DNA of 64,000 nt, from positions 1 to 64,000 of the forward strand of contig JAOTVL010000003.1 in the NCBI GenBank assembly GCA_029863525.1, read 5' to 3'. The position numbers and the translations under genes are program-made. Positions 9,798-25,594 of this stretch are shown here, piece after piece. Under the pieces are notes generated by a model. That model was not told where the DNA came from. It saw only the letters and a program-made list of their open reading frames with translations, and made no database searches. Positions within the stretch are counted from its first letter, which is position 1, and every line of letters begins with the position of its first letter. The DNA comes from Gemmatimonadota bacterium. Lineage in GTDB: Bacteria > Gemmatimonadota > Gemmatimonadetes > Longimicrobiales > Gaopeijiaceae.

Positions 9798-9904
9798 GGA
9801 GGCGCGAGGCGCGAGGCGCTCGACTGGCAAGGCACGAGGAGGAAGGCGTAGCAGCGCTACGTCGACGACGAGTAACGCCGCCAGACGAGATGCATCGCGT
9901 CTCC
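9798..9904. repeat. Nested imperfect palindrome between convergent genes
   Basis: GGAGGCGCGA (9798-9807)/TCGCGTCTCC (9895-9904); CTCGACTGGC (9819-9828)/GCCAGACGAG (9880-9889); CGTAGC-agc-GCTACG (9847-9861); three tandem GAGGCGC copies at 9799-9819. Confidence 0.65.
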
Positions 9905-11157
9905 TAGGCTTCCTTGATCCACCTCCAGAGCTCAGGAACCGTCGGCCTCTTCCCGGCCATGAGGATCCCCACCTTGTAGATGCGCCCCGCAACCCACGCG
10001 ATCCCGACCGTCGCGAGAGCCATCAGTAGGAACGAGAGCCCGATCTGCCACGCGGGCACCTGGCCGCCGGCCACCCGCGCCCACATGAGGATCGGCGTGA
10101 ACGGCGGGAACAGCGACAAACTGGTCGAAAGAGGCGTGTTGGGATTCTCGATGACGCCGATCACCATGATGATCGGGACCACGAGCAGGAGCAGGATCGG
10201 AAACTGCGCTTGCTGCGCCTCCTCGTCGCTGTTGCACATCGCGCCGACGGCCGCGTAGAGGCCCGAGTACATGAAGAAGCCCAAGACGAAGTAGCCGACG
10301 AAGAGGGCGATCAGCCCGATACCGGGCAGAGCCTCCGCGATCTCGCTCAGGTCCGCCATGTCCGGCCGGGCGGCGATGAGCGCCGGGAGGCCGCTGGCGA
10401 ACGCGAGCACCCCGAGGCCGAGCCAGATCGCCATTTGGGTCATGCTCACCGCGCCCACCCCGATGATCTTCCCGAGCATGAGATGCCACGGCTTCATCGA
10501 CGAGATGATGACCTCGACGATCCGGTTGGTCTTCTCCTCGAGCGTGGCCCGCATGACCGAGATGGCGTAAAGCAGGATCACCATATAGAGGATGAAGGAG
10601 CCGCCGTAGGCCACGAAGAACTGCGGATCGCCGGCGTCGGATCCGTCCTCCGCCGACAACATCTCGACCCGGAGCTCTCCACCGCTCAGCATGGCCTCTA
10701 CGTCGACGTCCCGCTGCTCGAGCTGAAATCCCAGCGCCGCCCTCGACACGGAGCTGCGGAGCGTGAGCTGCCGGATCGGGTTCGGCCGCGACCTGGTGTA
10801 CAGAATGGCCTCGCCCGTCTCGAGCGTGAGCTCATCGAGCATCATGAAGCCGCCGATCACGTCGTCGGCCACCGCTCGCCTCAGCTCGGTGACGACTTCG
10901 GAGCGCCATCGCTCCTCCGTGACGTTCCAGCCTGCTTCCTCGAGCATCGGGGCCAGCCGCTCGTACAGGACACCGGTCCCGTCTACGATGGCGAGGTCCC
11001 GATCCGCTTGTTCCCCCTGCCCGGCGAAGTAGGCGGGCAGAATCACGAGCCCGGCCATGAACAGAGGAGCGATGATCGTCGCGGCAATGAACCACCGTGA
11101 CCGCACCCGCTGCAGGTACTCGCGACGGATCACCGCCCGTACCTCGGGCAAGATCAT
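9904..11157 (-). CDS. ABC-2 type exporter permease (NatB-like)
   Basis: MILPEVRAVIRREYLQRVRSRWFIAATIIAPLFMAGLVILP with large extracytoplasmic loop and C-terminal TM helices; ATG overlaps upstream ATPase stop. Confidence 0.88.
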   Translation of the reverse strand: MILPEVRAVIRREYLQRVRSRWFIAATIIAPLFMAGLVILPAYFAGQGEQADRDLAIVDGTGVLYERLAPMLEEAGWNVTEERWRSEVVTELRRAVADDVIGGFMMLDELTLETGEAILYTRSRPNPIRQLTLRSSVSRAALGFQLEQRDVDVEAMLSGGELRVEMLSAEDGSDAGDPQFFVAYGGSFILYMVILLYAISVMRATLEEKTNRIVEVIISSMKPWHLMLGKIIGVGAVSMTQMAIWLGLGVLAFASGLPALIAARPDMADLSEIAEALPGIGLIALFVGYFVLGFFMYSGLYAAVGAMCNSDEEAQQAQFPILLLLVVPIIMVIGVIENPNTPLSTSLSLFPPFTPILMWARVAGGQVPAWQIGLSFLLMALATVGIAWVAGRIYKVGILMAGKRPTVPELWRWIKEA

Positions 11158-12254
11158 CGGTCGTCCTCCCAAAACGTCGCCGCTGCGCCGACGCCCGCCG
11201 GAACGCCCGCATCGCCCGCGGCGTCGACGCCCGCGTGCCGTACGAAGATCTCGTGAAGCCTCGGTTCGACCAGCTCGAAACGCAGAAAGCGCGCGCCGGC
11301 GTCGACCCCTCGTCGTAGGATCGCCTGATGATCCGCGCCGTCCCGAAGGAGAAGATGCAGCCCTCCCTCGACCGGCTCGACCCGGTCGATCTCCGGTCCA
11401 CGCAGCCACTCGTCCGGACCCTCGAATTCGACCGCGATCACGCCCTTTCGCTCCGCCGCCTTGAGCTGGCGCAGGTCTGCGTCGAGGACCTTCCGCGCGT
11501 TCGAGATCAAACAGACCCGCTCACAGAGCCGTTCGGCCTGATCCATGAGGTGCGTAGAGAAGAGGATCGTCGTGCCGCGAGCGTGGAAGTCACGCACGAT
11601 CTCCTCGAGCACATCCTGATTGATCGGGTCGAGACCGGAAAACGGCTCGTCGAGGATGAGCAGCTCCGGCTCGTGGATCACGGTCCCGATGAACTGGATC
11701 TTCTGCTGCATCCCCTTGGACAGATCCTCGACCTTCCGGTCCGCCCAGGAGCCGATCCCGAGCCGATCCATCCATGTGCCTCCTCGGCGTCGGCCCTCGG
11801 CCCGGGGCACTCCACGGATCTCGCCCAGGAAGGTGATGAGCTCGAGGCACTTCATCTTCTTGTAGACCCCGCGCTCCTCGGGCAGGTATCCGACCTTTTC
11901 GCGGCGGGTTCGATCGGGATCCGCTCCGAACAGCGAGACCGAACCCTCGTCCGGGTTCAGGATCCCCATGATCATGCGGATGGTCGTGGTCTTGCCCGAG
12001 CCGTTCGGACCCAACAGCCCGTAGATGACGCCACGCGGCACCTCCAAATGGAAGTCCTCGACCGCCGTGTGCGATCCAAACCGTTTGGTCACGCCTTGCA
12101 GGCGTACGGCGAAGCCGTGGTCGCTCAATCCGCCTCCCTTTTGAGCATGAGCCCGAAACCGCGCGTTTTTCGGCACTTCCGGTACGTCGTCCCCCCGACC
12201 TTCCTTCACGACGTACCGCAATTTCGAGTCATCACTTAGATTTCTCGGCTGCAC
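11154..12254 (-). CDS. ABC transporter ATPase (NatA-like)
   Basis: GLLGPNGSGKTTTIRMIMG Walker A; LSKGMQQKIQFIGTVIHEPELLILDEPFSGLDP; start may be internal (about 12127). Confidence 0.92.
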   Translation of the reverse strand: MQPRNLSDDSKLRYVVKEGRGDDVPEVPKNARFRAHAQKGGGLSDHGFAVRLQGVTKRFGSHTAVEDFHLEVPRGVIYGLLGPNGSGKTTTIRMIMGILNPDEGSVSLFGADPDRTRREKVGYLPEERGVYKKMKCLELITFLGEIRGVPRAEGRRRGGTWMDRLGIGSWADRKVEDLSKGMQQKIQFIGTVIHEPELLILDEPFSGLDPINQDVLEEIVRDFHARGTTILFSTHLMDQAERLCERVCLISNARKVLDADLRQLKAAERKGVIAVEFEGPDEWLRGPEIDRVEPVEGGLHLLLRDGADHQAILRRGVDAGARFLRFELVEPRLHEIFVRHAGVDAAGDAGVPAGVGAAATFWEDDR

Positions 12255-12275: not shown

Positions 12276-12467
12276 ATGGCCATCTATCGTACGCTCTACT
12301 ACACGGACGTCAGCGTCGGCGTGGGCGGGCGCGTAACGATTCCGCAGGACATGCGTGAAGATCTGGGGATCGACGAGGGCGATTCTCTCACGGTCCGGGT
12401 CGAGGAGAACCCACGCGGGGGTCGCCAGATGGTCGTATGGCGCTCCGAGCAGCAGCCCGAAGGCTAG
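12276..12467 (+). CDS. SpoVT/AbrB-domain DNA-binding protein, 63 aa
   Basis: GGRVTIPQDMREDLGIDEGDSLTVRVEE swapped-hairpin signature; GAGGAG RBS. Confidence 0.8.
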   Translation: MAIYRTLYYTDVSVGVGGRVTIPQDMREDLGIDEGDSLTVRVEENPRGGRQMVVWRSEQQPEG

Positions 12468-12503: not shown

Positions 12504-13850
12504 TCATCTGACTCCGCCTTCGAGCTCGACCCAACGCAGGAGCTCGAGGAGCGGTCCCCGCCCGTCGTGTAGCCACCATGGCGGGGGAAAGGAGAGCGCG
12601 CCGAACGGGACGACTCTGGACGCGCCCACACGACCCAGCGCTTCGGCGAGCTCCGCCGCGCGCCCCGCCAATCCCGCATATCCGACCGACTGCAGATGCG
12701 GACCCAGCGGCTCCAGGAGCTTGGACAGCAGGCTGGCATCGTCGACTGCGCGAACGCGAATCGCGCGCGGGCCACTCCACGGTCCGTCGGTCGGCTCCGG
12801 CTCGAACAGCACGCTCCACGAGCCCGCCTGCCCTCCGTGATGGACCTCCATCCCCCCCTGACCCGCCATCATCTCGGCCGTGCCCCGCAGCTGCTGCAGG
12901 GCGGATGCGTCCTCCATCGTCGAGGGCGGCCCCGGCAGCTCGCGCTCCAACGCCTCGAGAGCCTCGGCGAGGAGCAGGGCGAACCCCTCCGGCGGAATCG
13001 CGCCCCCCCGCTCGACGTAGATCAGCTGAGGACACACGCACCCGCGCTGCTCGAAAAGCACGACCGAGCGCGCGATTTCCCGGACGACCTGGGGGTACGC
13101 ATCGCGACCCACGATTCCGACACCGACCCGATGGTGGTACGTCACGACGCGTGTCGTGGCCGGAGCACGAGCCCGAAGCGTCGACACGGTTTCGTCGGAG
13201 CCATACACGACCGCCACGTCCGCGGCGTCCAGGACGACCTGCTCGAGCTCGGTCGTGCCTCCTGGCCAATAGACGACCGCGAGCGCGTCGGCCAGCGCAG
13301 GATCCTCCTTCCGGAGACCCTCGGCGAAGAGCGTGGGAAGGACCCGGTCGCCCGCGCCCGGCTTGAGTAGCGTGGGAGCCTTCACGCTCAAGCTGCGAAG
13401 CAGCGCGTTGACGCCCACGCCGGGAACGCTTCCGGATACGATCTGGACACACAGGGATGGACCGACCGCCATCTCGAGTCGTCGAGAGGCCGAATCGTCG
13501 CCGGGTCTGAAGGCCAGGCCATCCAGGAGCGTCGGGTCGCCCAATTCCTGTCGAAGAAGCGCGCCGAGACGCTCACCGGTCCAGTCGCGGGCCATCCCGT
13601 CGAGGACGGTACGCGCCATCGGCACCGACAGGTGAGCCTCCGTGGGAAGCACCTCCAAGGCACGCATCCGGAGCTCATCGGCTTCGTCGAGGAAGCGGGC
13701 CCCAACGCGTCCGAGCGCGTCACGGATCTCCGCCGCGGGGCGGGCGCGCAGGGTGTGGGTCCTCGCCCGCAGACGCGCGATGATCCGCCGGAGGTCCTCC
13801 AGGTCCGGCTGCGCCGGGGCTCCCGAGCCGAAGCCGACCGAGCCGCTCAT
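12504..13850 (-). CDS. LuxC-like acyl-CoA reductase
   Basis: MSGSVGFGSG... start at 13850 overlapping luxE-like stop; VSGSVPGVGVNALLRSLSVKAPTLLKPGAGD, VLFEQRGCVCPQLIYVERGG match the LuxC family. Confidence 0.87.
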   Translation of the reverse strand: MSGSVGFGSGAPAQPDLEDLRRIIARLRARTHTLRARPAAEIRDALGRVGARFLDEADELRMRALEVLPTEAHLSVPMARTVLDGMARDWTGERLGALLRQELGDPTLLDGLAFRPGDDSASRRLEMAVGPSLCVQIVSGSVPGVGVNALLRSLSVKAPTLLKPGAGDRVLPTLFAEGLRKEDPALADALAVVYWPGGTTELEQVVLDAADVAVVYGSDETVSTLRARAPATTRVVTYHHRVGVGIVGRDAYPQVVREIARSVVLFEQRGCVCPQLIYVERGGAIPPEGFALLLAEALEALERELPGPPSTMEDASALQQLRGTAEMMAGQGGMEVHHGGQAGSWSVLFEPEPTDGPWSGPRAIRVRAVDDASLLSKLLEPLGPHLQSVGYAGLAGRAAELAEALGRVGASRVVPFGALSFPPPWWLHDGRGPLLELLRWVELEGGVR

Positions 13851-14980
13851 CGGCGCTGCCCAGCCGCGCTCATGAGTTCGTCCATCGCGCGCGAGCATCC
13901 TCTCGGCTCCGCGCCCGTGGCGCGACCCCGCAGCCGAACCCGCCCTTGCTCGATGGCGCCGACGTCCTCGGTGAGGACGTGGCACACCGAGCCGAGGTTG
14001 GCCAGGTCGAAGAACGCCAAGACCCCCTCTTGGCCGTCCGGCAACGGAGCCAGCGTCGTCGGGTCGAGCGCGCGCACCGCGAGCCACGGGGGGGGACGAT
14101 GAACACCGAATGCCTCGGCTCCCTCGGTGAGGACCGGCTCATAGAGCTGAGAAAGAAGCTCGGTCATCCCGTACTCGTTCACGATCCGAGCTCGGGGGAC
14201 CCCGGTCGAGCCTTCGATGTCCCGGTACAGCTCTTCCCGTGACACGGTTCGACGCACCCCCTTGAAGCCTCCGGTCTCCATGATCCGACTGCCCTCCGGG
14301 AGCCGACTCAGCGCATTTCCTCCATCTTCGACCAAGTGCAGGAACGAGAGCGCTGTGCCGAGCAGGAGTACGGGTTCACCCGAGGCGCGGATCTCGGCGA
14401 CTCTGTCGCTCGCATGCTCGACCCAACCGCCGTCCTTACCCATGAGCCAAACCACCTCCGAGGCGAGCCTCTCGGCCGCCGCTCCGACCATGAAGGAAAG
14501 AGAGGAATCGGGAACCTCGTCGGGAGAGGGCACGAGCGAGAGGAACACGATCGAGGCTCGGTCCGGTAGGAGACCTCTCCGAAACGGCTCCACGAGCGAC
14601 GCGCGGTACAGATCGAGGCGGGGCACGACGTGCCGCCCTCGGGATTGCCTCCCCTCGGTCGTCCCGCTGGTTCGGAACAGCGCGCGTGTCGAGGCGTCGA
14701 CCGAAGAGTCGGAGCCGGACGAGTCGAAAAGGAAATGCTTGAAGGCCGCGGCGGGCACGGCGGGAATGTCCTCCCACCTGGCGACGCTCGTCGGTGTGAC
14801 CCCGCGGCGCTCACACAACGCCCTGTAGGGGGAGCACGCCTCGAACTGGACCTCGAACGCGGCACGGGCCCGGCGATCGAACTCCTCCGGACTCCAGCTC
14901 TCCCAATTGCCTTCCGTGAGCCGAGCCCGGAGCGCTTCGACCATCGTCTCGAACGCGCCCGCGTGATTGTCGTCGTTCAT
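13847..14980 (-). CDS. LuxE-like acyl-protein synthetase
   Basis: IPAVPAAAFKHFLFDSS, FRTSGTTEG, ETGGFKGVRRTVSREELY, NEYGMTELLSQLY typical of LuxE/PaaK-like family. Confidence 0.88.
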   Translation of the reverse strand: MNDDNHAGAFETMVEALRARLTEGNWESWSPEEFDRRARAAFEVQFEACSPYRALCERRGVTPTSVARWEDIPAVPAAAFKHFLFDSSGSDSSVDASTRALFRTSGTTEGRQSRGRHVVPRLDLYRASLVEPFRRGLLPDRASIVFLSLVPSPDEVPDSSLSFMVGAAAERLASEVVWLMGKDGGWVEHASDRVAEIRASGEPVLLLGTALSFLHLVEDGGNALSRLPEGSRIMETGGFKGVRRTVSREELYRDIEGSTGVPRARIVNEYGMTELLSQLYEPVLTEGAEAFGVHRPPPWLAVRALDPTTLAPLPDGQEGVLAFFDLANLGSVCHVLTEDVGAIEQGRVRLRGRATGAEPRGCSRAMDELMSAAGQRR

Positions 14981-15044: not shown

Positions 15045-17477
15045 GTGTCTCCTTTGCTGAGCGAGTCTCGCTCTCAGCCCATGTATCGGAGTTCTCGTAT
15101 GCAACCGTCGGCCTCCTGCGCCGTCGTTTCAATATTGGTGGTCTCGGCACTCTGCGCCGGATCGCCCCACGACGCCTTTGCCCAACAGTCCGAGGAAGAC
15201 CGGTTGGCGGGAGCACCGATTGCGCTCGTCGCCCACCGTTTGAGCGAGGTCGACATCGAGCTCGACGGTCGACTCGACGAGTCGATCTGGTCCTCTGCGA
15301 CACCGATCAGGGACTTCACCCAACAGGAACCCGTCGAGGGTGGGGTGCCCTCCGAGGAGACGGAGATCCGCGTCCTGTACGACGAGGACGCTCTCTATAT
15401 CGGGGCCGTCATCTACGACGATCCCGAGGGCATTCTCGCCTTCCAACGAGCGCGTGACGCACCGCTGAGCACAGACGACCGCTTCATGTGGATCCTGGAC
15501 ACCTTCCGCGACGGTCGTACCGGCTACTTCTTCGAGATCAACGCCGCCGGCCTCATGGGCGACGGCGTCATGACGGGGGGTGGTGGGGGCGGTGGATTCG
15601 GGGGCGGCGGATTCGGGGGCGGCGGGACGAACAAGGCTTGGGACGGCATCTGGGAAGCGCGGACCCACATCCGGGACGACGGTTGGTCCGCCGAGATCCG
15701 CATTCCCTTCCGTACGTTGAACTTCAACCCGGGACAGACCTCCTGGGGGATCAACTTCCAGCGCACGATTCGTCGCCGGAACGAGGAGATCCTCTGGCGT
15801 GGCTGGCGTCGTAGTGAAGGCCTGCGGAGTCCGGTATTCGCGGGCGAGTTGGCGGGGCTCCAGGGAATGTCGCAGGGGATGGGCCTCGAAGCGGTCGCAT
15901 CCGCGATCCAGAATTACCGAAACGTACCCACGAACGCCGACCCGACGACGTACCCGAGCGACGTCAGTCTCGACGTGAACTACAGCGTCACGTCGAGCCT
16001 GCGCGCTTCGGTGAGCGTGAACACGGACTTCGCCGAGGTCGAGAGCGACTCGCGGCGCGTGAACCTGACGCGCTTCCCCCAGCGCTTTCCGGAACAGCGC
16101 GACTTCTTTCTGGAGGGCTCCGGAGTCTTCTCCTTCGCACCGCGAAGCGGGCCGGAGCCGTTCTACTCCCGGAAGGTCGGCCTCAACCAGGGCCAGCAGA
16201 TCCCGATTATCTACGGGACTCGGCTGACGGGTCAGGCCGGAGCGTACGAGCTCGGCTTCTATCAGATGGGCACGGCCGAGCACGAGTACTTCGACAACGC
16301 CAGCCTCATCGACCGAACCGTGCCCAGGGAGAGCTTCACGGTCGGTCGGGTGCGCCGAAAGCTCTTCGAGCAGTCCGCGCTCGGGGTGATCTACACGCGT
16401 CGGGCGACATGGAGGGATCCGACCGATCCGGGGGCCACGGACCCGATCGACCAGCACACCGCCGGAGTCGACCTCGATTTCAGCACGCGGAACTTCCTCG
16501 GCGACAAAAACCTCGAGCTCGAGGCCTTCCTCGCGTGGAACTCGAACCCGCTCGCCGCGTCCGACCTCGACTATGCGGACCATACGTTCCGCGACCTGTC
16601 GTCGCACGGGCTTCGCTTGAACTATCCGAACGACGTCTGGACGGCGCACATCTCGTACCGCCAATTCGGCGACGAATACAACCCCGCCCTGGGCTTCGTG
16701 ACACGGAACAACTTCCGGCGCATCGAGCCTAACATCGGGTGGTCGCCTCGGACGCCCGGCATTTCGTGGCTCCGTCGGCTCGACTTCTCCGTCCAATTCC
16801 GGGAGCAGGTCAGCCTCGACAAGGATCAGCCTCGCGCGAGCGCCGTTCTCCTCACGGGGCTGGGCGGCGCCGAGGAGCGTGAGTGGGAGTTCAAGGTGCT
16901 CGGTCTCAACTTCGAGACCGGCGACAACCTCGACTTCACGGCGACCCGCACCTACGAATACCTCGACCGCACGTTCGAGCCGAGCGACGACCTCTTCATC
17001 GCGCCGGGAGGCTACACCACCTGGAACTACCGCCTCAACGGCCGCACCGCGGGGCAACGCCGCGTCTCGTTCTTCGGCGGCCTCAACTGGGGTGGCTTCT
17101 GGGACGGCGATCGCGTCGGGTACTTCGGCCGCGTCAGCTTCCGCCCCAACCCCGGTATCACCCTCTCGACGAACGTCCAGTTCAACGACGTCACGCTGCC
17201 GGACGGCAGCTTCACCGCCTCGCTCTACGAGTTCGAGACGAACTGGAATCCGTCTCCCCGGGTCGCGATCACGAGCCAGGTCCAATACGACGACCAATCC
17301 GAGATCGTGGGGCTGTTCGCCAGGCTTCGCTGGATCGTAAAGCCGGGCAACGACGTCTATCTCGTCTTTTCTCAGAACTGGCGGTACGACCCGCTCGACC
17401 TCTTGGACCCGCAGCGGGACTTCATCACGCTCTCACGCGGCGCGTCGATCAAGGCGAACTACACCTACCGTTTCTAA
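15045..17477 (+). CDS. DUF5916 outer-membrane beta-barrel protein with N-terminal carbohydrate-binding-like domain
   Basis: 810 aa with signal sequence (likely start 15081 or 15099); VEGGVPSEETEIRVLYDEDALYIGAVIYDD; RDFFLEGSGVFSF; alternating beta-strand C-terminus ending in F. Confidence 0.87.
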   Translation: MSPLLSESRSQPMYRSSRMQPSASCAVVSILVVSALCAGSPHDAFAQQSEEDRLAGAPIALVAHRLSEVDIELDGRLDESIWSSATPIRDFTQQEPVEGGVPSEETEIRVLYDEDALYIGAVIYDDPEGILAFQRARDAPLSTDDRFMWILDTFRDGRTGYFFEINAAGLMGDGVMTGGGGGGGFGGGGFGGGGTNKAWDGIWEARTHIRDDGWSAEIRIPFRTLNFNPGQTSWGINFQRTIRRRNEEILWRGWRRSEGLRSPVFAGELAGLQGMSQGMGLEAVASAIQNYRNVPTNADPTTYPSDVSLDVNYSVTSSLRASVSVNTDFAEVESDSRRVNLTRFPQRFPEQRDFFLEGSGVFSFAPRSGPEPFYSRKVGLNQGQQIPIIYGTRLTGQAGAYELGFYQMGTAEHEYFDNASLIDRTVPRESFTVGRVRRKLFEQSALGVIYTRRATWRDPTDPGATDPIDQHTAGVDLDFSTRNFLGDKNLELEAFLAWNSNPLAASDLDYADHTFRDLSSHGLRLNYPNDVWTAHISYRQFGDEYNPALGFVTRNNFRRIEPNIGWSPRTPGISWLRRLDFSVQFREQVSLDKDQPRASAVLLTGLGGAEEREWEFKVLGLNFETGDNLDFTATRTYEYLDRTFEPSDDLFIAPGGYTTWNYRLNGRTAGQRRVSFFGGLNWGGFWDGDRVGYFGRVSFRPNPGITLSTNVQFNDVTLPDGSFTASLYEFETNWNPSPRVAITSQVQYDDQSEIVGLFARLRWIVKPGNDVYLVFSQNWRYDPLDLLDPQRDFITLSRGASIKANYTYRF

Positions 17478-19195
17478 AGAGCGGCCACACCGTTCACGCC
17501 GCGGCCGCCGAGGCGTCCCGTGTGCTCGCCGTCCCGTAACGTGAGCACCCCGTTGACCACGACGTGGGGAATGCCGACCGGGTACTGGTGCGGATCGTCG
17601 AACGTGGCGCGGTCCGCGACCGTCGTCGGATCGAAGACTACGAGGTCCGCGTAGGCCCCTATCCGGATCTCGCCGCGATCCGCGAGGCGGAGCTTGCGAG
17701 CGGGCATCTGCGTGATCTTGTGGATGGCCGATTCGAGCGTGAGCGCCCGGGTGTCACGAGCGTAGTGGCCCAGGAGCCGAGCGAACGATCCATAGCCGCG
17801 CGGGTGCGGTGATCCGGTCGACAAGGGCCCGTAGGGTGCGTACGCCCCTCCATCGGAGCAGAGCATGCCGAGCGGATGGGCGAGGATCTTGGCGGTGTTC
17901 TCCTCCCCCATCCCATGGCCGATCATGCCGACGCTCCCGCCGTTCGCCTCCAGGAGCTGGAGCGTAAGGGCGTACGGTTCGGTCGCGCGTTCGTCCGCGA
18001 GGTCGCCCAGGCGCCGTCCACGAGCCCACGAGGTGGCGTCGTTCGTGCTCGAGATCTGGACGGAGTTCCAGTCCCCGAGAAGCGCGACCTTGTCGCGACA
18101 CGCTGCCTCGAGACGAGCCGCGCTCTCCGGGGCGCGCAGACGGCGCAGAAACGCGGCGTTGCCCCCGGATCGGGACTCGCTCGGGAAGAGGTTCGAGAGT
18201 CCCGTCGCGTACGCCGTGTAGGGATACCGATCGAAGTGAACGTCGACGCCGTCCGCGCGAGCACGGTCGATGAGGTCGAGTGCGGCGTCCGCCTTCCAGT
18301 AGTTCCGTTGTCCCTGCGCCTTCAGGTGCGAGATCTGAACGGGCACACCCGCGAGTCGACCCACGTGGAGCGCCTCCGCCACGGCACCGAGGAGCCGGTC
18401 GTCTTCGTTGCGCATGTGCGACGCGTAGGGGTAGCCGGTGCCCCGAAGCACGCCAGCGAGCGCGGCGAGCTCCGCCGCGTCCGCGAAGCCGCTCGGCGCA
18501 TACTCGAGCCCCGACGATAAGCCCACGCAGCCCCGCGCGATCTGGTCGGAGAGCAACTCCTGCATGCGTGCGACCTCCGCGTCCGTCGCGGGTCGGTCTT
18601 CGTTGCCCACGACGAGGCCGCGCAGCGCGCCGTTGCCGACCATCGTGGCGACTCCGACCGCCGGACGTTCGCGGCCGATCCGCTCGACGAAGCCCGCGGG
18701 ATCACGGAAATCGATCACGACGCCCTGCCGCTGGTAGCGGTCGCGCGTCGATTCGAACTGGGCGTCCGACCAGGGCCCGATGGAGCCGCCGTCCTGCCCG
18801 ACCACCTCGAGGGTGACTCCCTGGCGAATGCGGCTCTCGGCGCGGTTGTTCACCAAAAGCGACAGGTCGGCGTGCGAGTGGATGTCGATGAATCCGGGAG
18901 CGAGCGCTCCGCCCCGCGCATCGAGCTCATCAGAACCCGCGGGAAGGTCGCCACCGATGGCCGAGATCCGGTCGCCCGTCACGGCGACATCGACGACTCG
19001 GCCAGCCGCTCCGGTGCCGTCGAACACGGTGGCGCCGCGGACGACCAGGTCGGCTCGGCTGCCGAGACCGACCGGACCCCCGCTTCCGAGTGCGGCATCG
19101 AGGTCGCCGTGGCCGACACCCAGCAGAGCGTCGGGGGTGGCCATAGCTCCGGCTCCCACCACCCCGGCCACGCGCACGAACGTCCTTCTCTTCAT
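17474..19195 (-). CDS. N-acyl-D-amino-acid deacylase / D-aminoacylase-like amidohydrolase, TAT-type signal
   Basis: MKRRTFVRVAGVVGAGAMATP...; GFIDIHSHADLSLLVN, GLSSGLEYAPSGFAD, YPYASHMRNEDDRLL. Confidence 0.88.
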   Translation of the reverse strand: MKRRTFVRVAGVVGAGAMATPDALLGVGHGDLDAALGSGGPVGLGSRADLVVRGATVFDGTGAAGRVVDVAVTGDRISAIGGDLPAGSDELDARGGALAPGFIDIHSHADLSLLVNNRAESRIRQGVTLEVVGQDGGSIGPWSDAQFESTRDRYQRQGVVIDFRDPAGFVERIGRERPAVGVATMVGNGALRGLVVGNEDRPATDAEVARMQELLSDQIARGCVGLSSGLEYAPSGFADAAELAALAGVLRGTGYPYASHMRNEDDRLLGAVAEALHVGRLAGVPVQISHLKAQGQRNYWKADAALDLIDRARADGVDVHFDRYPYTAYATGLSNLFPSESRSGGNAAFLRRLRAPESAARLEAACRDKVALLGDWNSVQISSTNDATSWARGRRLGDLADERATEPYALTLQLLEANGGSVGMIGHGMGEENTAKILAHPLGMLCSDGGAYAPYGPLSTGSPHPRGYGSFARLLGHYARDTRALTLESAIHKITQMPARKLRLADRGEIRIGAYADLVVFDPTTVADRATFDDPHQYPVGIPHVVVNGVLTLRDGEHTGRLGGRGVNGVAAL

Positions 19196-19253: not shown

Positions 19254-19523
19254 CTACCCCCTTCGCACCCTCCCCGGCTCCAATCCGCCCGCATGGAGGA
19301 TATTCTCCTGCAAGCGAGCCGCTTCCTCGTCGGTGAAATCGAGGAGTCTTCGGACTCCCTCTTCGGCTGCCGTGTAGGCTTCTTCAGGGAAATCGCCCCC
19401 CTCCGCATGCGCGAGCGCCGCACGAAGCGCGCCGGTCTCCCGTTCCGCCTTCTCAAGGGCCCGTCGAAGGCGGTTCAACGCCTTGCGAGCCTCCGATTCC
19501 GCTGAAGTCATGGGGACCATCAT
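19254..19523 (-). CDS. Hypothetical coiled-coil-type protein, 89 aa
   Basis: ORF rich in A/E/R/L heptads; no recognised family. Confidence 0.45.
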   Translation of the reverse strand: MMVPMTSAESEARKALNRLRRALEKAERETGALRAALAHAEGGDFPEEAYTAAEEGVRRLLDFTDEEAARLQENILHAGGLEPGRVRRG

Positions 19524-24532: not shown

Positions 24533-25594
24533 ATGGCGAACGAGCCGCGGGATCGACGGCCGGAGATCCGACTGTCCCAGCTCAGCCACGGCGCCGGTTG
24601 AGCGTGTAAACTCGGCATGTCCGAGCTGGCGCAGGTCCTGCGCCACGTTCTCCCGGTTCCGGATCCCAACGCCCTCGTCGGCCACACGACGGGGGACGAC
24701 GCCGCCGTGTATCGTCTATCCGGCGACCGTGCGCTGATCGTCACCGCCGATTTCTTCACCCCGATCGTCGACGACCCCTATGACTTCGGCAGGATCGCGG
24801 CGGCCAACGCCCTCTCCGACGTGTACGCCATGGGGGGCAAACCCCTCTTCGTGCTGAACCTGGTCGGCTTTCCCCGCTCTCTCCTCGCCGACGGCATTCT
24901 CGACGAGATCCTGCGAGGGGGGAGCGACGTGACGCGTGGCGTGGGCGTGCCGACGCTCGGTGGTCACACGATCGACGATCAGGAGCCGAAGTACGGCTTG
25001 GTCGCGATCGGTGAGGTACACCCCGACAGGATCGTGACCAACACCGCCGCGCGACCGGGGGACGTGCTCGTGCTCACCAAGCCGATCGGCTCCGGCGTGA
25101 TCGCGACCGCCATCAAGAAGGGCGCGGCGACGGTCGACACCATCGCCGAGGCGGTCGACGTCATGTCGACATTGAACGCGGCGGCGGCCGAGGCGATGGG
25201 GACCGCCGATGTGCGAAGCGCGACGGACGTCACCGGCTTCGGCCTCCTGGGTCATCTTCGCAATCTCGTCCGAGCCTCCAAATGCGCGGCCGGGATCGAC
25301 GCCGCACACGTCCCACTCCTCAGCGGCGCGCGCTCCCTGGCCGAAGCCGGTCACGTGCCCGGCGGGACGAAGCGAAACCTGGCGGATGTCGCGTCCGACG
25401 TGAGCTTCGCGGACGAGGTCGACGAGGTCACGCGCACACTCCTCGCCGACGCCCAGACGTCGGGTGGACTTCTCATGTGCGTCGCACCGGAACGACTCGA
25501 CGGACTGCTCGCCGACCTGGCCGGCAAGGCACCCGCCGCCGCGGTCATCGGCAGGGTCGTCGCGGGACCCGCCGGGCACATCGACATCGAGTAG
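24533..25594 (+). CDS. selD: Selenide, water dikinase SelD, predicted to be a selenoprotein (Sec at TGA 24599-24601)
   Basis: ATG 24533 behind AAGGAGG; MANEPRDRRPEIRLSQLSHGAG-U-ACKLGMSELAQVLRHVLPVPDPNALVGHTTGDDAAVYRL...; TGA sits at the conserved Cys/Sec site of the SelD catalytic loop; continuous frame with ORF 24617..25594. Confidence 0.95.
24628..24644 (+). promoter_or_regulatory. Candidate bacterial SECIS hairpin for selD
   Basis: GGCGCAG-GTC-CTGCGCC: perfect 7-bp stem, GUC triloop, loop begins 34 nt after the UGA; alternative nearer hairpin CTCGG-CATGT-CCGAG at 24611-24625. Confidence 0.6.

Follow-up and report, generated by a model that had tools for sequence, protein, structure and literature searches.

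Routine annotation labels the proteins LuxC and LuxE as parts of a fatty-acid reductase. When the genes for both lie side by side with no luciferase genes around them, the question arises of which acid is reduced and where the resulting aldehyde goes. Such a pair is present in a genome of the order Longimicrobiales (phylum Gemmatimonadota), within a stretch of 64,000 nucleotides that is called the window below. The initial annotation regarded the pair as a stand-alone fatty-acid reductase module whose product must serve something other than light emission, such as the formation of fatty alcohols, wax esters, or a secondary metabolite.

The gene pair and the search for luciferase

The two genes are located on the minus strand and share four bases:

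13847..14980, minus strand: luxE-like gene for an adenylating acyl-protein synthetase (377 aa; PF04443)
12504..13850, minus strand: luxC-like gene for an acyl-thioester reductase (448 aa from the ATG at 13850; PF05893)
13847..13850, minus strand: ATGA overlap of the luxE stop and the luxC start, read directly (translational coupling)

Membership in the two superfamilies is clear, with LuxC scoring 215.7 bits against Pfam PF05893 (E 1.3e-63; cut-off 21 bits) and LuxE scoring 70.5 bits against Pfam PF04443 (E 1.6e-19; gathering cut-off 24.9 bits). Profiles built from relatives of the window proteins also matched the corresponding chains of the solved LuxC-LuxE complex 7xc6 over nearly their full length (E 2.6e-53 for LuxC and 8.4e-41 for LuxE), which settles the fold. 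These scores and the gene coordinates confirm that the overlapping pair described by the initial annotation is real. Substitution of catalytic residues had been named there as a finding that would speak against the assignment, but neither of the two cysteines in question is replaced. The catalytic nucleophile of LuxC, Cys271 (codon 13040-13038, minus strand), and the C-terminal acyl-carrying Cys362 of LuxE (codon 13897-13895, minus strand) are invariant in all aligned homologs, including the luminous proteins. At the level of sequence, the family matches, the profile matches to 7xc6, and the retention of both catalytic cysteines suggest that the enzyme is intact. The four-base overlap recurs across many orthologous loci. 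Within the LuxC motif QRGCVCPQ (around 13049-13026, minus strand), the second residue after the catalytic cysteine is Cys rather than Ser, a variant carried by 12 of 50 order members when the window is counted.

The bacterial luciferase family PF00296 was searched for in the genome, which is 83% complete, and one protein was found, encoded on another contig. This protein is an Atu2307/SP_0267-type monooxygenase (TIGR03858 type; 486.7 bits, above the cut-off) and reaches 50 bits with the luciferase-alpha model, for which the cut-off is 600. As a member of another subfamily, it was rejected as a luciferase, and no luxA or luxB gene was found with PF00296 in this 83% complete genome. Inspection of the neighboring genes likewise revealed no luxD adjoining the pair. 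Because there is no luciferase nearby or elsewhere in the genome, the product of the pair does not feed light. The proteins themselves also fall far below the NCBIfam equivalog cut-offs for their luminous counterparts, with 44.8 bits for LuxC where 750 are needed and 59.4 bits for LuxE where 550 are needed.

Distribution and gene neighborhood

A LuxC-specific profile detects orthologs in 43 of the 44 sampled Longimicrobiales genomes, as opposed to 3 of the 107 genomes sampled elsewhere in the phylum. Among 61 relatives, 57 carry a single copy of LuxE and LuxC is present in 58, and three genomes (G022, G024, and G056) have neither protein. The one mismatch between the two (G011) involves a LuxC gene that is truncated at the end of its contig. 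Retention and loss of LuxE and LuxC go together across these relatives, and both are retained even in family f3, where their genes are about 4 kb apart or on separate contigs. Furthermore, the LuxC tree follows the families of the order (f1, which includes the window, f2, and f3). On the basis of this distribution, the joint retention, and the agreement between tree and families, the pair is a core, vertically inherited feature of Longimicrobiales and not a sporadic module or roaming cassette. As a core feature of the whole order, the pair is not a secondary-metabolite cassette.

No neighbor of the pair is common to all three families, of which f3 is poorly read since gene calling in its GC-rich genomes is often in the wrong frame. 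The genes that surround the pair in the window are as follows:

19254..19511, minus strand: small conserved coiled-coil-like protein, 85 aa from the ATG at 19511 (alignment and phylum search)
17474..19195, minus strand: amidohydrolase (Amidohydro_3) with a likely Tat signal (PF07969, 88.4 bits)
15045..17477, plus strand: DUF5916/CBM9-like protein, divergent from luxE (PF19313, PF06452)
12276..12467, plus strand: AbrB/MazE-type small DNA-binding protein, convergent with luxC (PF04014, 33.1 bits)
11154..12110, minus strand: ABC transporter ATPase, downstream of luxC (PF00005)
9904..11157, minus strand: ABC-2 type permease of the exporter type, partner of the ATPase (PF12698, 142.8 bits)

The usual gene order in f1 consists of the small 85-aa protein, sometimes the amidohydrolase, luxE, luxC, and the ABC exporter, with the AbrB-type gene facing luxC (51 loci by synteny). 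The small protein, which ends in GGLEPGRVRR, is encoded at the head of the ancestral operon. Its gene is coupled to luxE in the window's family, and the coupling is translational in many related genomes. The protein is widespread in two families of the order, and a homolog (L064) has no Pfam match. It was rejected as an obligate third component because it is unlinked to luxE in f2, absent from f3, and encoded in one genome that has no luxEC. About 16 related loci have the amidohydrolase gene immediately before luxE, and it was rejected as a fixed partner since only part of f1 has it. In about 28 loci, luxE is separated from its ancestral upstream genes by the DUF5916 gene; the window is among them, with the inserted divergent gene parting the amidohydrolase from luxE. 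The ABC exporter downstream of luxC was also rejected as a fixed partner, because its synteny is kept in f1 only and it is missing from several f1 loci. In f2, the genes ahead of luxE encode an Omp85-like protein, a DUF4390 protein, and a thioredoxin-domain protein, and the neighbors also include an envelope gene for an SLT transglycosylase. At a greater distance in the window, a gene for SelD (selenide, water dikinase; 24617-25594, plus strand; 363 bits, over the cut-off) suggests the use of selenium in this lineage.

Nearest relatives and candidate substrates

In a translated search of annotated plasmids, full-length relatives of LuxC turned up in 27 records, with identities of 28-35%. In the annotated records, luxE-luxC adjoins a gene for a short-chain dehydrogenase (SDR), and several of the operons also carry an NMT1/THI5-type ABC importer or a purine/pyrimidine-type permease. 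Rfam models place a TPP riboswitch upstream of five of the six operons examined, namely those of Pantoea dispersa, Azospirillum lipoferum, A. brasilense, Lactiplantibacillus plantarum, and Niallia taxi; the Priestia operon gave no riboswitch match with Rfam. The TPP-riboswitch luxE-luxC-SDR operons are found in the plasmid records at these positions:

L234, 6478-9230
L235, 6412-12538
L236, 1390-6321
L238, 6520-9263
L239, 4453-10045

In addition to the SDR, these operons encode transporters of the NMT1/THI5-type ABC importer, NCS2 permease, or ThiW kinds. In the Niallia operon, for example, two tandem TPP riboswitches are followed by thiW, the NCS2 permease gene, luxE, luxC, and the SDR gene. 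Plasmid p1 of Pseudomonas silvicola (L260, 3835-7106) has luxE and luxC each in pieces next to an SDR gene that is open, and this luxE-luxC-SDR arrangement is probably a decayed copy.

Profiles of the Longimicrobiales proteins give the riboswitch-type proteins 390-446 bits for LuxC and 351-391 bits for LuxE, compared with 169 and 124 bits, respectively, for the luminous proteins of a lux reporter plasmid. Phylogenetic trees, whose sampling comprises plasmid records and one phylum and leaves out the LuxE/LuxC proteins of Bacteroidota, split the order plus the riboswitch type from luminous and other types with support values of 98 (LuxC) and 99 (LuxE). Within this group they form sister lineages, which is moderately supported (94 for LuxC and 87 for LuxE), and the order does not fall inside the riboswitch clade. 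A first LuxC tree that included one very long branch had placed the riboswitch type beside two of the order's families with weak support.

The riboswitch-type operons probably represent a salvage pathway for a thiamine-precursor carboxylate. LuxE and LuxC would turn the carboxylated precursor into an aldehyde, which the SDR would then convert to the alcohol. A search of the literature found no description that links LuxE or LuxC with thiamine or a TPP riboswitch. These sister operons offer a directly testable thiamine salvage function, proceeding from carboxylate to aldehyde to alcohol.

Another clue regarding the substrate comes from one residue of the LuxE protein:

14174..14176, minus strand: LuxE Glu269 codon, in the A5-type motif NEYGMTE (homolog alignment)

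Glu269 precedes the Tyr of this motif and is Glu in 48 of 48 order members, whereas all six riboswitch-type LuxE proteins carry Met. In a profile alignment its counterpart in malonyl-CoA synthetase 4fut is the Arg of LERYGMTE, and the corresponding residue of malonyl-CoA synthetase binds the substrate and forms salt bridges to the bound product (PMC6122825). Since the invariant Glu269 aligns with this substrate-binding position, its charge appears more compatible with a polar substrate than with an alkyl chain.

From the riboswitch-type sister group and Glu269 together we infer a polar substrate. The interpretation we favor, to which we grant not quite an even chance, is that the pair is a core ATP- and NAD(P)H-dependent two-subunit carboxylic acid reductase of Longimicrobiales that acts on such a compound. 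By analogy with the luminous family, LuxE would activate the free carboxylic acid with ATP and pass the acyl group to its C-terminal Cys362, from which LuxC would receive it on Cys271 and reduce it with NAD(P)H to the aldehyde. A polar carboxylic acid that bears an amine, a hydroxyl, or a heteroaromatic ring would be a likelier substrate than a long-chain fatty acid, and the protein pair would function as a vertically inherited housekeeping enzyme with no link to light.

In one genome from another family of the class (G147; L099, 7733-10744), luxE-luxC is preceded on the same strand, at a distance of a few bases, by a QueE-like gene (254 bits). QueE is 7-carboxy-7-deazaguanine synthase, which makes a heteroaromatic carboxylic acid, and this single case could be a hint at the substrate.

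The best-surviving alternative is that the pair is a true long-chain fatty-acid reductase, with the fatty aldehyde entering an order-specific membrane or envelope lipid either directly or as the alcohol. To our knowledge, the only LuxE-LuxC pairs that have been characterized biochemically are the luminous ones, and these act on long-chain acids. A core, order-wide enzyme that lacks a fixed operon partner fits a role in lipid synthesis, and the Omp85-like, DUF4390, and SLT transglycosylase genes near the f2 pairs are envelope genes. However, the scores are far under the luminous equivalog cut-offs, the trees separate the pair from the luminous proteins, and the acidic residue predicted for the LuxE pocket is invariant. 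Two candidate consumers of a fatty aldehyde are also lacking. The WS/DGAT wax synthase family PF03007 is absent from the window genome, with two matches above the cut-off in 151 genomes, both outside Longimicrobiales; the plasmalogen desaturase family CarF/PEDS1 (PF10520) is likewise absent from the window genome and was found in one order member and five other genomes among the 151. Both families were rejected as aldehyde consumers on these grounds. A literature search returned nothing relevant on LuxE/LuxC and Gemmatimonadota lipids. Overall, we consider a fatty substrate unlikely, albeit with a chance large enough to be taken seriously. The initial annotation was correct about the gene pair itself; its fatty-acid label is unsupported because nothing but the family name had suggested the substrate, and the fates it proposed for the aldehyde are likewise unsupported.

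A second alternative is that the pair salvages a carboxylated thiamine precursor, such as the pyrimidine carboxylate, in the way that the sister operons appear to, but without riboswitch control. The sister relationship in both trees is in its favor, as are the TPP riboswitches, NMT1/THI5-type importer, ThiW, and NCS2 permease of the sister operons. Nothing direct, however, links the Longimicrobiales pair to thiamine. No Rfam match to a TPP riboswitch is present in the window or at 20 luxE loci, and TPP control of the pair was therefore rejected. In the six genomes of the order examined, TPP riboswitches instead precede thiC (five genomes) or a TenA-like gene (one genome), and in most of these genomes thiC supplies the pyrimidine. 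The exception is an f2 genome (G037; L264, 7243-8135), and the five with thiC belong to f1 and f3. The NF006393-type SDR is absent from the window genome and was found in two sampled order members, and so this protein was rejected as a partner for being nearly absent from the order. Neighbor maps of the order's loci revealed no thiamine transporter beside luxEC. In addition to Glu269, LuxE differs from the sister type at alignment columns 160 and 205, both of which are invariant in the order. Salvage of a thiamine precursor by this pair is consequently improbable.

Least credible, and in our judgment very improbable, is membership in an envelope or glycan modification pathway of the kind found in flagellar glycosylation islands, for although LuxE and LuxC occur in such islands of Aeromonas (group II; PMC7874193) and a flagellin-linked LuxE-LuxC cluster with an ACP and a ketoreductase exists in another Gemmatimonadota genome (G078, with a similar LuxE in G183), the flagellar-type LuxC reaches only 35-50 bits against the order's profile and no ACP, AMP ligase, or glycosyltransferase adjoins the pair. 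The proteins of these two genomes (G078 at L096, 7890-12736; G183 at L095) represent a distant LuxE-LuxC type, accompanied in G078 by genes for the ACP, the ketoreductase, and an AMP ligase near the flagellin genes.

Implications and comparison with known systems

We also put forward, tentatively, a broader proposal that we judge somewhat more apt to fail than to hold. A separate LuxE-LuxC branch may be devoted to polar, non-lipid acids, with a riboswitch sub-branch that salvages a thiamine precursor in several phyla and a Longimicrobiales sub-branch that serves as the core enzyme for a second, amine-bearing or heteroaromatic acid. Should a branch of this type exist, the luminous fatty-acid reductase would be one specialized branch of an older and more general family of acid reductases. 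If many non-luminous pairs use other acids, annotations as fatty-acid reductases would be misleading, and to ask how the bacterial light operon arose would be to ask about a carboxylic acid reductase that predates it. The order-wide presence of the pair also points to a hitherto unrecognized step, involving an aldehyde, in the core metabolism of this order.

Several known systems can be placed beside this pair. The LuxE homolog AS87_03730 of Riemerella anatipestifer, which is conserved across strains (PMC4772473), is similar in belonging to the LuxE family in a non-luminous host, a comparison made by description only. The LuxC and LuxE proteins of flagellar glycosylation (Aeromonas group II, G078, and G183) share both families with the Longimicrobiales proteins and are also non-luminous, but they have the distant form of LuxC, are accompanied in G078 by an ACP, a ketoreductase, and flagellar genes, and do not constitute an order-wide core. 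With the luminous LuxC-LuxE fatty-acid reductase (7xc6, and the lux reporter operon of plasmid pox38), the pair shares both subunits, the fold family, and the catalytic cysteines. It differs in its identity of approximately 20-22%, its failure to reach the equivalog cut-offs, the lack of luxA and luxB in the window genome, and its position in a separate clade.

Most similar are the TPP-riboswitch operons of Pantoea, Azospirillum, Niallia, Lactiplantibacillus, and Priestia, which have the same LuxE-LuxC subfamily, gene order, and catalytic cysteines and form the sister group in both trees. Unlike the Longimicrobiales pair, they possess a TPP riboswitch (except for Priestia, where no match was found), an adjacent SDR, and a precursor-type transporter, and their LuxE carries Met in place of Glu269.
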